The notes under the pieces: model-generated | The model's database searches: none | Told to the model about the DNA's origin: nothing | The model's input: the letters and a program-made list of their open reading frames with translations, nothing else | Program-made: the position numbers and the translations under genes | Shown: positions 836-60,541 of the stretch, piece after piece | Numbering within the stretch: the first letter of the stretch is position 1 | How the letters are laid out: each line of letters begins with the position of its first letter | Source: Lactobacillus sp. UCMA15818 | GTDB taxonomy: Bacteria > Bacillota > Bacilli > Lactobacillales > Lactobacillaceae | Reading direction: 5' to 3' | DNA length: 64,000 bases | Assembly (NCBI RefSeq): GCF_030400225.1 | Contig: NZ_VJYB01000007.1 | Span: 1-64,000, forward strand

Positions 836-975
836 TTTATTTGTTATTGATAAATATATTCCATAAGTCAAAATTCTCTGTCCAACTTTGAGAATTACCC
901 ATAGCAACATACATTCATATTGTTCGTAATTTCGAGTTAATACACACATTTTCCTGACTTATATCCGACTTACCT
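836..975 (-). repeat. Composite 3'-flank repeat, copy R2 (long hairpin module)
   Basis: In minus orientation this is a full-length hairpin module. Outer arms ATAAGTC (962-956) and GACTTAT (869-863) pair around a longer imperfect stem. The module aligns with the copy at 23281-23400, where the corresponding arms are CAAGGC and GCCTTG. It ends just before the ltaS stop codon. Confidence 0.7.
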
Positions 976-3744: not shown

Positions 3745-3830
3745 AAAAAGGGCTGATTCAAAATTTAGCTTTTAAACCAACCCTCAATATATTACAAACA
3801 ATCGTGTTTCATAAGTCAAAATTCCCCTGA
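3745..3830 (+). repeat. Composite 3'-flank repeat, copy R3
   Basis: A palindromic core (3749-3784, GGGCTGATTCAAAATTTAGC with a complementary right arm) is followed by a remnant of the long module (ATAAGTCAAAATTCCCC, 3811-3827). It lies downstream of the flippase-like gene and can end that transcript. Confidence 0.6.
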
Positions 3831-7213: not shown

Positions 7214-7403
7214 TGATTCCTCAATTTTTCATTAAAAATCATTTTTAATCTTAATAGTTTTTTTACTTAATCTTCAAATTCAAATAAAATAACGCATACG
7301 AATTTGTACTTTAGCAAGCAATGCTGATACTAAATTAAAAAATAGCGTACATCTATCTTCCCATTAGTAATTCAAGGTTGCAAAAAAAATTTTGTCTGAT
7401 CAG

Positions 7404-7464
7404 CCTTATTTATCAAGAATAAGCAAAGAGGCTAGATCAAAATTTAACTTTTGACCCAGCCCCT
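7404..7464 (+). repeat. Composite 3'-flank repeat, copy R4 (core palindrome)
   Basis: The palindromic core at 7428-7464 (GAGGCTAGATCAAAATTT and TTGACCCAGCCCC) is preceded by TTATTTATCAAGAATAA, the end of the long module. It lies immediately downstream of ptsI and probably serves as its terminator. The rest of the 330-nt gap (7214-7403) is AT-rich and featureless to my reading. Confidence 0.7.
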
Positions 7465-19578: not shown

Positions 19579-19621
19579 TCATCCTCATATATTATTTGTT
19601 AACCTTATTTTCTCCTTTTGC

Positions 19622-19700
19622 TTTATAAAACATTTTTTTATTCGGAGTCGAGAAAAAGGCCAGATCAATATTTAACTTCTGACCCAGCCCCTCTCAGTTA
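19622..19700. repeat. Composite 3'-flank repeat, copy R6
   Basis: The end of the long module (TTTTTTTATTCGGAGTCGAG) leads into the core palindrome at 19655-19694 (GGCCAGATCAATATTT and TCTGACCCAGCCCC). It lies just downstream of ntdP and is followed on that strand by TTTTTCTC, so it works as the ntdP terminator. Confidence 0.75.
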
Positions 19701-21899: not shown

Positions 21900-22469
21900 A
21901 TTATCTAAAGTACCGAGCTTCCAGAAATAAGCATAACATATGTTAATTTAAAGTCCGATATATTTATGTTATTATTTGGTGATGGGAGATATACGCATGT
22001 TAAAATACAATCGAACCAATGTTTATGACTTTAATTTCCATTTAGTGTTTGTCACTAAATACAGAAAGAATATTTTTACCAATGAACAAGCTAGAAGTGT
22101 TATGAAAGACATCTTGTACACAATAGCAAACAATAACAATACTGAAATTGAATATATTGAGGTTATGCCTGACCATGTTCATATGATGTTAAGTTTTTCT
22201 CCAAAACAGACACCCAGTTCCATTGTTAAGTCTTTTAAAGGAACTTCAGCTAGAGAGTGGTTTAAACAGTTTCCAGAAACAAAAGAACAGCTTTGGGGAG
22301 GACATCTATGGTCGCATAGCTATTTTATGAGTACTTTAGGAAATGTTTCAAAAGAAGTAGTTGCTAAATATATTGAAAATCAATTAACAGAATACAATTC
22401 TGGTCGGTCAAGACACTAATTTATCTTACGATTAAAATCATAATTTTTCTTAGTTACCGACCCTATAAA
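21900..22469 (+). mobile_element. IS200-type insertion sequence (left end approximate)
   Basis: The right end is suggested by a hairpin whose arms are GGTCGGT (start near 22402, in the last codons of tnpA) and ACCGACC (22456-22462), followed by CTATAAA. The same right-end sequence recurs without a transposase at 49792-49816, which supports the boundary near 22469. The left end is not resolved; a palindrome around CATATG near 21930 and AT-rich DNA precede tnpA. IS200 elements make no target duplications, so none were sought. Confidence 0.65.
21997..22419 (+). CDS. tnpA: IS200/IS605-family TnpA, Y1 (HUH) transposase
   Basis: A single-strand DNA transposase that cuts and joins at hairpin ends. 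The 140-residue length is normal for TnpA of IS200. The HUH motif is HVH in MPDHVHMMLSF, and the catalytic tyrosine is in SKEVVAKYIENQ. The frame is intact, so the enzyme may be active. GGGAG lies 8 nt before the chosen ATG at 21997. No tnpB accompanies it, so this is an IS200-type element. It lies between the rRNA methyltransferase and recX. Confidence 0.93.
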   Translation: MLKYNRTNVYDFNFHLVFVTKYRKNIFTNEQARSVMKDILYTIANNNNTEIEYIEVMPDHVHMMLSFSPKQTPSSIVKSFKGTSAREWFKQFPETKEQLWGGHLWSHSYFMSTLGNVSKEVVAKYIENQLTEYNSGRSRH

Positions 22470-22489: not shown

Positions 22490-23281
22490 ATGCCCAGAAT
22501 CTTAACAAAAATTCAGGCTCAAAAAAAGCCAGGTCGATTCAACCTTTTCATAGATGGTAAATACATCTTCTCAGTCTCAGAAACAGTCTTAGTTGAAAAC
22601 CACCTTCATAAGGGACAAGAGCTCACTGATGAATTAATTGCACATCTAATTAGTTCTGAAGGTTTCTCTAAAATATATCAAAAAGCTTTGAATTATCTGA
22701 GTTATCAATTAAGAAGTGAAAAAGAAATTGATAATCATTTAAAAAAAACCTCTGATGATATCTTATTAATTGAAAAAGTAAAAGATAAACTTCGCGCTTA
22801 TAATCTCTTGGATGATACAAAATATGCTGCCAGTTATGTAAGAACGATGGTCAACACTTCAGACAAGGGATTCAACGTCATTAGAAATAATTTACGAACA
22901 AAAGGTATCTCAGAAAACAATATTGAGCAGGCAAAGCTTGATTATGATTCCACCAAAGTGACCGCCAAATTAGAAGCTTTAATTCCAAAACTCATCCATC
23001 AGTATCGGAATCAACCATCAAAAATACGTATTCAGAAAATCAAGCAACGACTTATTGCAAAGGGATATAATACTACAGAATTTGTAGATATCCTTGCTGC
23101 CGACTATTCTAACGATTCAGATCATGAAGATGAACTTTTGTTGAATAATGTAGAAAAACTTTGGAATAAATATAATAACAGCCATCTCACAGATTCTCAG
23201 AAAAAACTAAAAATAAAGCAAACTCTTTATCGTAAAGGGTTTGCTTTAGACAAAATCACTAATAAACTTGATGAACTTTAG
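22490..23281 (+). CDS. recX: Recombination regulator RecX
   Basis: Binds RecA and modulates its filament and coprotease activity. The 263-residue length is typical of lactobacilli, which have the long form. The N-terminal RILTKIQAQKKPGRFNLFIDGKY segment and repeated three-helix modules (ALNYLSYQLRSEKEIDNHL, then IRNNLRTKGISENNI, then IKQRLIAKGYNT, then IKQTLYRKGFALDKI) are visible. AAGGAA lies 7 nt before the ATG. The IS200 right end stops about 20 nt upstream, so its native promoter may have been displaced. Confidence 0.93.
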   Translation: MPRILTKIQAQKKPGRFNLFIDGKYIFSVSETVLVENHLHKGQELTDELIAHLISSEGFSKIYQKALNYLSYQLRSEKEIDNHLKKTSDDILLIEKVKDKLRAYNLLDDTKYAASYVRTMVNTSDKGFNVIRNNLRTKGISENNIEQAKLDYDSTKVTAKLEALIPKLIHQYRNQPSKIRIQKIKQRLIAKGYNTTEFVDILAADYSNDSDHEDELLLNNVEKLWNKYNNSHLTDSQKKLKIKQTLYRKGFALDKITNKLDEL

Positions 23282-23444
23282 AGTGTGACACAAGGCGAGA
23301 AAATTTGAGTACTAACTAAAATTATGAACATAGCATGCTCTTTGCTATGAGTAATTTGAAGTTAGACGGAAGATTTTGCCTTGCGGAACACGTTTAATCA
23401 GAGTGCGACATAAAGCGGGAAAATTTGAGTACTAACTAAAATTA
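23281..23444. repeat. Composite 3'-flank repeat, copy R11 (best long hairpin module, tandem)
   Basis: A complete 120-nt module (23281-23400) is followed by a second, truncated copy from 23401 that matches its first 44 nt at 40 positions. The module folds as nested arms: CAAGGC (23291-23296)/GCCTTG (23378-23383), CTAACT (23312-23317)/AGTTAG (23360-23365), AAATTA (23319-23324)/TAATTT (23352-23357) and CATAGCA (23329-23335)/TGCTATG (23343-23349). It fills the gap between the convergent recX and yihY stop codons. The short palindromic core is absent here. Confidence 0.8.
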
Positions 23445-24296
23445 ACTTTCAACTTTTTTCTTAATATATTCTTTTAACTTTGCTTTCTTAACTTTAATTT
23501 CCTTATAAAAATATTTTTCAAGTGATGCATTCAACACCGCACCTATCATTATGATCCATCCAGAATAATTGAGCCAAAACAGTAACACGATGAACGTTCC
23601 AATTGTTCCATAACTAAGTACAGACTTAGCAAAATAATGTACATAGATAGAAAATCCTTGTGCCAATGCAATCCACCCCAGTGTTGCAACTGTAGCTCCC
23701 GGTATAATTAAATGTAGATGCAACTTAGCATTTGGAAGAAAATAATAAATTAGACTTATTATAAAAAATAGTCCCAGCAAGGTAACTGGCCATTTCAATG
23801 TACTGAAAATATTTCCTAACTCTCTTGGTAACTGAAAAATAGGTGTTAAATATTCAAGGATTGTTTGTCCAAAACTGAATAGTAAAATAATTGCAATCAT
23901 TAAGAAAATGAAGATCAATGTTAAGAAAAAAGAAATAATTCTGGCAGTAATTGCGCTTTGTGACTCCTCGACCCCATATGTCTCATTAAAAGCCAGTTTA
24001 AGTGCATTAACACCTCGACTCGTTGCCCATAATGCTACAAGAGCACTCACAGAAATCAAACCGCCGCTGCTGTGATCTAAGAAAGAAATTATAATCGGAT
24101 ATAATGTTTTATAAATTGTCGCTGGAACTGCCGATTCTAAGTACACTAAAACTGTAGAAGCCTTGATATTTAGAAGTGGTAGCGTATTTCCAAGCAAAAT
24201 TATCGATGGAAAAATTGCTAGCAAGGCGTAATAAGCAATAACAATTGAAGTGTTATTAATATTAATACTAGAAGATCTTTTTATTAAGTCTTTCAC
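23442..24296 (-). CDS. YihY/BrkB family inner membrane protein
   Basis: A polytopic membrane protein of the YihY (formerly RNase BN-like) family with about six helices and conserved features AYYALLAIFPSII, the LWATSRGVNALKLAFNETYGVEE loop and YYFLPNAKLHLHLIIPGA. The substrate is unknown. The GTG at 24296 is the canonical choice but its AAGGA lies only 4 nt away. A stronger GGGGGAG (24345-24351) precedes an ATT at 24338 by about 6 nt in the same frame, which would add 14 residues that fit the family's N-terminal helix. The start is therefore uncertain. Confidence 0.85.
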   Translation of the reverse strand: MKDLIKRSSSININNTSIVIAYYALLAIFPSIILLGNTLPLLNIKASTVLVYLESAVPATIYKTLYPIIISFLDHSSGGLISVSALVALWATSRGVNALKLAFNETYGVEESQSAITARIISFFLTLIFIFLMIAIILLFSFGQTILEYLTPIFQLPRELGNIFSTLKWPVTLLGLFFIISLIYYFLPNAKLHLHLIIPGATVATLGWIALAQGFSIYVHYFAKSVLSYGTIGTFIVLLFWLNYSGWIIMIGAVLNASLEKYFYKEIKVKKAKLKEYIKKKVES

Positions 24297-31361: not shown

Positions 31362-31406
31362 TCATATGCTTTAATTTACATCTATAGTTAAAATTAAATA
31401 ACAAAT

Positions 31407-31530
31407 GGGGTCTGTGACAAAAGTTAACTTTTGTCACAGACCCATTATTATTTATTACGAATAAACTTATTTTATAAGTCAAAATTCTCCGTCTAACTCG
31501 AAGTTTCCTCGACTTATATCACACTCATTT
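31407..31530. repeat. Composite 3'-flank repeat, copy R7 (perfect 36-nt palindrome plus short module)
   Basis: 31408-31443 is a perfect 36-nt palindrome: the left half reads GGGTCTGTGACAAAAGTT and the right half is its exact complement. A shortened long module follows in minus orientation, with outer arms ATAAGTC (31474-31480) and GACTTAT (31511-31517). It lies between the convergent hydroxyacid dehydrogenase and DUF1054 genes, acting as a terminator for one or both. Confidence 0.85.
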
Positions 31531-41837: not shown

Positions 41838-41908
41838 ACAAACACGTTTATTCGTAATAAATAGAGAGACTAAATCAAAATTTAACTTTTGACCTTGCCT
41901 CTCTCTTA
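41838..41908. repeat. Composite 3'-flank repeat, copy R8
   Basis: The end of the long module (CACGTTTATTCGTAATAA) leads into the core palindrome at 41863-41907 (AGAGAGACTAAATCAAAA and a matching right arm ending TGCCTCTCT). It is downstream of the aldehyde dehydrogenase and probably ends the 49.4-41.9 kb operon. Confidence 0.75.
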
Positions 41909-49765: not shown

Positions 49766-49791
49766 TTATCTTTCACGCTTAAAAACATAAG

Positions 49792-49816
49792 TTTTCTTAG
49801 TTACCGACCCTATAAA
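49792..49816 (+). mobile_element. Solo IS200-type right-end remnant
   Basis: A 25-nt sequence (it includes GTTACCGACCCTATAAA) is identical to the right end of the IS200 element at 22445-22469, with similar bases before it. No transposase is near. It is probably the scar of a second element or a copied end. It lies between the gtrA gene and its terminator. Confidence 0.6.
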
Positions 49817-57966: not shown

Positions 57967-58142
57967 CTGTTCAACATAAGACAGTAGACTTTTAGTACTA
58001 ACTTGAAATTAAAAACACAGCATGCACTTTGCTATGAATTTCAAAGCTAGCCGAGAAATGCTAATTCATGGAAGACAACTCATTGATCCAGTCTCAAAAA
58101 CAAAAAAACTGAATCAAAATTTAATTTTTGACCCAGTTTTAT
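57967..58142 (+). repeat. Composite 3'-flank repeat, copy R9 (module plus core)
   Basis: The long module starts near 57967. The inner arms CTTGAAATT (58002-58010) and AATTTCAAAG (58037-58046) pair, where the copy at 23281 has AAATTA/TAATTT. The core palindrome is at 58107-58140. It is downstream of the small gene at 58228 and fills most of the 348-nt gap to the Puu-like promoter. Confidence 0.75.
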
Positions 58143-60324: not shown

Positions 60325-60370
60325 ATCAAAAAGACCAGGTCAAAAGTTCATTTTCGACCTAGCCTTTTAA
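60325..60370. repeat. Composite 3'-flank repeat, copy R10 (core palindrome)
   Basis: A core palindrome (60333-60364, GACCAGGTCAAAAGTT with a matching right arm) flanked by A and T runs. It lies between the 3' end of the ABC exporter operon and the pox promoter. The rest of the 327-nt gap, 60371-60541, is AT-rich without features that I could identify. Confidence 0.7.
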
Positions 60371-60541
60371 TTAGCTATACCTGTGTTTTCCAAAACCAAA
60401 ACTATCAAACTAACTTTCCATTATTCATAACAAAAATTTCGTTATGTTTGCAATTTTAAGCTCATATTAGTATGATACCAACTTATGTTAACACATAAAA
60501 TTTTTATAATTTGTTACTTTTTTTGTTTCTAATTATAAAAA

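Follow-up and report, generated by a model that had tools for sequence, protein, structure and literature searches.

The repeat between recX and yihY is a worn copy of a genus-wide mobile element of Liquorilactobacillus that very likely replaces the hairpins it enters

A hairpin repeat at the recX–yihY locus

We analyzed a window of 64,000 nucleotides from Lactobacillus sp. UCMA15818, in which the convergent genes recX and yihY enclose a hairpin repeat and a second, truncated copy of it (Table 1). The recX stop codon TAG (23279–23281) is completed by the first two bases of the first repeat copy, and in genomes G006 and G007, which are free of the element at this place, recX ends GAGCTGTGA and GAACTGTGA, respectively. 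The second copy ends on the yihY stop codon (TTA, 23442–23444), as the first-pass annotation had it. That annotation described a module of nested arms repeated every 120 nt, and the period proved exact (23280–23324 and 23400–23444 are identical at 41 of 45 positions) and the hairpin real, but the module is not the whole unit, since it lacks a second hairpin (hp2) that most intact copies carry beside the first (hp1). The three other copies that it cited, around 836, 31406 and 57974, are genuine profile matches to the same family. In all, the profile search places ten loci of the family within the window, and the first copy is 81–90% identical to other copies. The array at recX–yihY is also present at the orthologous site of genome G005.

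Upstream of recX lies an IS200/IS605 tnpA gene (21976–22419, forward strand), whose right-end sequence is repeated at 49775–49816. The stretch upstream of recX has no alignment in G005, so the tnpA region is probably a separate insertion.

Table 1. Genes and repeat copies in the 64-kb window
Feature	Position	Strand	Evidence
recX	22490–23281	+	ORF; TAG stop completed by the element's first bases
First copy: left end (AGAGTGTGACACAAG), whole hp1 and spacer, no hp2	23281–23400	+	nhmmer 104 bits, model 3–123
Second copy, 44 nt, then truncated; abuts/overlaps yihY stop	23401–23444	+	41/45 identity, profile match
yihY-like gene, convergent with recX	23442–24296	-	ORF
Degenerate copy, hp1 through start of hp2	836–970	-	nhmmer 77.5 bits
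3′ half of a copy, hp2 included	3748–3827	-	nhmmer 38 bits
Copy without the first 40 model positions, hp2 present	7331–7464	+	nhmmer 51 bits
3′ fragment, hp2 included	19616–19692	+	nhmmer 26 bits
Fragment with 3′ half of hp1 and hp2; hp1 internally shortened	31406–31502	-	nhmmer 58.5 bits
3′ fragment, hp2 included	41841–41903	+	nhmmer 38 bits
Near-full degenerate copy, hp2 present	57974–58138	+	nhmmer 64 bits
Near-full degenerate copy, hp2 present	60332–60488	-	nhmmer 44 bits

Anatomy and ends of the element

The full unit is about 170 bp long and consists of GGGAGTGTGMCATAAGTC, the 110-nt hairpin hp1, a short spacer and the terminator-like hairpin hp2, which ends CAGCYCC. Intact copies begin GGGAGTGTG(A/C)CATAAGTC; hp1 spans model positions 5–114, with the apical stem CATAGC/GCTATG, and is joined through the spacer TTTATNCGGAATAAATAGA to hp2, a GC-rich hairpin (for example, GGGGCTGTGACAAAATTTAACTTTTGTCACAGCCCC), the right arm of which forms the right end of the transposon. 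Among species, hp2 varies through paired changes, and in the species of the window the transposon end, which is the right arm, persists beside a decayed left arm. Internally deleted derivatives, such as GGGAGTGTATCATAAGTCGATAAAATTTAACTTTTGATACCTTCCC at 1644320 of G005, also keep both ends. In two copies from the window's genome, L023 and L025, 10 bp of target are duplicated at the insertion (TTTTTTGATT and TTTTTCTTTT, respectively). Each of these sequences is single at the empty G005 site, as expected of clean insertions, and from the two target duplications we place the ends at GGGAGTG and CAG(TTCC/CCCC). Short, non-coding and dispersed in many copies (170 bp, with 61 near-full copies in a single chromosome), the element has the build of a MITE. 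It has no Rfam match at the gathering threshold, with weak, chance-level ones alone at a permissive threshold, and none in the phage records searched.

Copy number, spread and mobility

The repeat is abundant far beyond chance. At least 42 BLAST matches were found in the window's genome, and the profile search identified 191 copies or fragments, 61 of them near-full, in the G005 chromosome, where a few insertions are counted twice because the last ~30 kb of the contig repeats its start as an assembly overlap (G005:C3:1-30411 and 2209590-2240000 carry identical insertions that are offset by a constant 2209589, and the ends look redundant). The family is present in 11 of 14 Liquorilactobacillus genomes and absent from 3. 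To this genus we also assign the window's genome, an exact 27-nt core having matched loci in L. satsumensis, L. sucicola and L. mali. Outside the genus, 201 sampled genomes of the bacterial family yielded nothing beyond short or weak matches; those in G104, G129, G032 and G025, which belong to other genera, cover either the 3′ part with hp2 or hp1, which suggests that distant relatives of the element may exist in other genera of the family. One copy resides on a mobilizable plasmid region common to L. hordei and L. nagelii from water kefir, and these matching regions read as a possible route of horizontal spread. On two plasmid records (L325, L326; NZ_CP018177.1, NZ_CP018181.1), an annotated IS1182 transposase gene lies 665 bp downstream of the plasmid-borne element.

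The recX–yihY array, present in the window's genome and in G005, is absent from G006 and G007. L. mali (G006) has undergone a burst of copies that are 91–96% identical to the query copy. In G007, a relative with 94% identity at the recX–yihY locus, seven of the burst sites have no hp1. Comparison with the complete G005 chromosome revealed further sites of this kind. With presence and absence at orthologous sites seen at recX–yihY, in the G006/G007 pairs and in the pairs between the window's genome and G005, the element is almost certainly mobile. The repeat that we started from does not stand alone as an RNA module; it is an eroded member of a mobile family that occurs genus-wide and in high copy in Liquorilactobacillus.

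Tandem pairs and self-nesting

L158/L188 is a direct case of nesting: the G007 allele comprises an old 3′ fragment with hp2, and the G006 allele comprises that fragment followed by a complete new element. Seven of ten distinct same-strand junctions fall at model positions 132–136, where the resident hp2 begins (P ~8 × 10−8 for a 5-nt slot in 100), and several element pairs in L. satsumensis are spaced 133–137 nt apart. New copies appear to land in resident ones because hp2 is itself a good hairpin target. The tandems are pairs with junctions mostly at hp2, which is not the pattern of a tandem minisatellite. The 120-nt period of the window reflects another junction, GTTTAATC/AGAGTG, near position 121, common to copies of that sub-type; it would fit an insertion slightly upstream, in a small hairpin of the spacer. 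The most plausible account of the partial tandem is that a later copy, 23401–23444, landed in a resident one, the first copy.

Paired changes and the question of an RNA fold

The first-pass annotation had argued from paired changes between copies for either selection on structure or hairpin-based mobility. One of its examples, CAAGGC/GCCTTG against ATAAGTC/GACTTAT, is a true double change of two pairs; the other, AAATTA/TAATTT against the copy at 57967, does differ, but partly through a register shift and not as a clean paired substitution. Across 125 distinct copies (mean identity 77%, pairing taken from the fold of the consensus), hp1 contains 63 doubly changed cells over 49 pairs, compared with 29 ± 5 in column shuffles; however, registers slid along the hairpin as controls give 62–81 such cells, as many as the proposed pairing, so the double changes are not specific to it and are weak evidence for selection on RNA. 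G·U states are favored over A·C at 27 of 36 informative pairs (P = 0.004), a count that includes consensus wobble pairs; normalized G·U rates differ little from those at unpaired sites, and the excess is small. The 175 doubly changed cells of hp2 far exceed those of hp1, and hp2 is also the transposon end. In L104 of L. satsumensis, the apical stem has become a perfect palindrome (TTACTCATAGC...GCTATGAGTAA). A perfected palindrome is a mark of template switching in DNA, a process by which paired changes arise with no selection involved. An RNA fold may be under selection, although nothing requires it, and paired changes within repeat hairpins do not necessarily imply an RNA function. The claim of hairpin-based mobility, on the other hand, is supported by presence and absence at orthologous sites, defined ends, target duplications and replaced target hairpins.

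The repeat might nonetheless be a structured RNA, either a cis-regulatory 3′ element or a small RNA with its own terminator, with a fold under selection and dispersal by duplication. The very stable fold, the terminator-like 3′ end, the sense bias behind genes and the slight surplus of G·U would all suit such an RNA. We nevertheless consider it improbable, given that copies are decayed and truncated everywhere, that the burst in L. mali is lineage-specific, that orthologous sites differ in presence, that Rfam gives nothing above chance level and that slid registers match the hp1 counts.

Probable replacement of target hairpins

Where related genomes have an allele free of the element, another hairpin usually occupies the corresponding site, and several of these hairpins are intrinsic terminators. 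The displaced inverted repeats include GTCAACACAATCGTGTTGAC (L166), GACAGTGATGCACTGTC (L015), ATGTTCAACTATCTAATTGAACAT (L178) and AGAGGGACTAGGTTCAAAAGTTAACTTTTGAACCTGGTCCCTCT (L174), among others. When the folding energies of 14 displaced segments, with limits drawn by eye on the alignments, were compared with same-length random intergenic DNA and with DNA just after stop codons, 9 reached P < 0.05 against both backgrounds (Fisher combined P = 2 × 10−9 and 2 × 10−8, respectively, for the 14 segments), and no significant hairpin was found in the remaining 5. Two insertions duplicated their target rather than replacing it; target duplication is absent at most sites. The flanks of all 138 copies are not significantly palindromic by pair shuffling (44 of 500 shuffles reach the observed value), and those of the IS1182 copies described below are matched by 51 of 2000 shuffles. 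In the first test, the A-rich left and T-rich right flanks shared by all copies raise the null and account for part of the outcome. Among near-full copies, the right flank is T-rich in 64%, as against 31% of random intergenic DNA. Their median distance past the stop codon of a same-sense gene is 33 nt, and the upstream gene is in sense for 45 of 61 (background 48%, P = 9 × 10−5). From the displaced segments, we consider it very likely that the element replaces target hairpins.

Could the element instead have reached its sites through homologous recombination between terminator hairpins, or template switching between them, and not by transposition? An hp2-like hairpin already exists in the element-free allele at four of the seven G006/G007 sites, and the perfected palindrome in L104 points the same way, but the target duplications at two sites and the unrelated hairpins replaced at L166 and L015 need no homology, and the ends of the element are constant. 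This route is even less probable than a structured RNA, and transposition into hairpins remains our preferred reading.

An IS1182-family transposase as the probable agent

An IS of 1796 bp, whose 19-bp ends are identical (GGGGCTGTGCCATAAGTCC), is present in the G005 chromosome in ~18 complete or almost complete copies; it encodes a protein of 548 aa assigned to the IS1182 family by NCBIfam (306.7 bits, cut-off 270). The left end of the element, GGGAGTGTGCCATAAGTCG, is identical to the IS1182-type end at 16 of 19 positions, at the very end itself, and the right arm of hp2 at 13–16 of 19; the element thus has terminal inverted repeats related to those of a resident IS (13–16 of 19), with partial identity and no similarity seen between the two beyond the ends. 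Several IS1182 copies occupy AT-rich palindromes or adjoin the 3′ part of the element, in the place of hp2. IS1182-type sequences occur in 10 of the 11 element-bearing genomes and in none of the 3 element-free ones (Fisher P = 0.011, the species not being independent), the exception being G009, which has the element and no IS1182 match. No match to the IS1182 protein turned up in the 215 kb examined of the window's own genome, which elsewhere carries one full IS1182 copy and several at contig ends. One IS1182 copy (G005:C3:2151852-2153648) differs from the others in lying between direct repeats of 21 bp (TAGGTTGATATCTTTTCCAAT), which implies that the family can also duplicate its target.

PMC4923244 describes IS1272 and TnSha1 as entering hairpins, terminators included, with deletion of the stem-loop, and PMC5678879 likewise reports replacement of inverted repeats by IS1272, a member of the IS1182 family. 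Judging from the resemblance of the ends and from co-occurrence, an IS1182 transposase is the probable agent that mobilizes the element in trans. Neither the papers listed in one literature search nor the MITE review that was searched yielded a description of an IS1182-type MITE. A REP/RAYT-like system, with the repeat moved by an IS200- or REP-associated tyrosine transposase such as that at 21976–22419, is very improbable and was rejected: the Y1 transposase gene lies 860 bp away and REPs are likewise high-copy hairpins, but its protein is of the IS200/IS605 type (148.7 bits, cut-off 55) and, at 50.2, falls short of the cut-off of 80 for the REP-associated model, the tnpA's own end recurs at 49775 without the element, and the chemistry misfits 10-bp duplications and replaced hairpins.

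The repeat as a landing site for an IS3-family element

The repeat is itself the landing site of an IS3-family element of 1473 bp with the ends TGAAGTGCC...GGCAGTACA, which is present in 16 distinct copies in the G005 chromosome. All 16 are inserted in a single orientation at one position of the repeat, between GTGTGACATAAG and AAGTCGGG; one is interrupted by an IS1182 copy, one has lost its right flank by deletion, and 13 of the 14 intact copies are flanked by a 3-bp AAG duplication. Contigs of the window's genome end at the identical junction between the IS3-family element and the repeat. The loci include L108–L117 on G005:C3, and L010 and L014 in the window's genome. Relics of the IS3-family element also occur, two of them in reverse orientation; L. 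sucicola and G003 hold relics.

Proposed mechanism and relation to known systems

We propose that the element is a ~170-bp MITE composed of hp1 and the terminator-like hp2, the right arm of which would serve as the right transposon end, and that an IS1182-family transposase most likely moves it in trans. It would enter DNA inverted repeats, chiefly intrinsic terminators just past stop codons, usually removing the target hairpin and substituting its own hp2. With hp2 in place of the old terminator, termination may be kept, a prediction to which we give somewhat better than even chances. New copies would also land in a resident hp2, producing hp1–hp1 tandems with periods of ~120–137 nt, the partial tandem of the window included. 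We hold the joint reading, a non-autonomous, IS1182-mobilized MITE that replaces hairpins and nests in itself, with considerable confidence. The chances are about equal for and against a broader proposal, namely, a class of 'terminator-swapping' MITEs that would home to intrinsic terminators by structure and not by sequence, delete them and supply their own terminator as a transposon end; insertion would then be nearly harmless, and the element would over time rewrite the terminator set of the genus, reuse itself as a target and offer a safe landing site to the IS3-family element.

If the proposed mechanism is correct, structure-guided hairpin replacement would be the driver of a high-copy MITE as well as of IS1272 and its transposons, for which it has been reported so far, and swapping transcription terminators for a working copy would be a way for a selfish element to spread. 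The element would provide a tractable, food-associated system for studying how IS1182 transposases recognize hairpins, as well as a case of layered parasitism, with IS3 inserted into a MITE inserted into a terminator.

The closest parallels of the element in behavior are IS1272 and TnSha1 of staphylococci (IS1182 family; PMC4923244, PMC5678879). They enter inverted repeats and terminators, and the stem-loop of the target is lost; their ends are inverted repeats, and a target duplication is mostly absent. Unlike these, which carry a transposase gene, the element is 170 bp long and non-coding, ends on the right in a terminator-like hairpin, inserts into its own copies and at two sites duplicated 10 bp of target. 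SPRITE, BOX and RUP of Streptococcus pneumoniae are likewise short, non-coding, dispersed repeats of a Gram-positive host; SPRITE resembles a terminator, and elements insert in one another, whereas the portions of PMC3049150 and PMC10969869 compared here, by description and not by sequence, do not describe hairpin replacement for them. Finally, REP/PU, the target of IS1397 and ISKpn1, is also a high-copy palindromic repeat that serves as a specific target of IS3-family elements, according to PMC1525189, but in our case a terminator-like MITE of lactobacilli, itself mobile, is the target, and the IS3-family element enters its left terminal repeat with a 3-bp AAG duplication.
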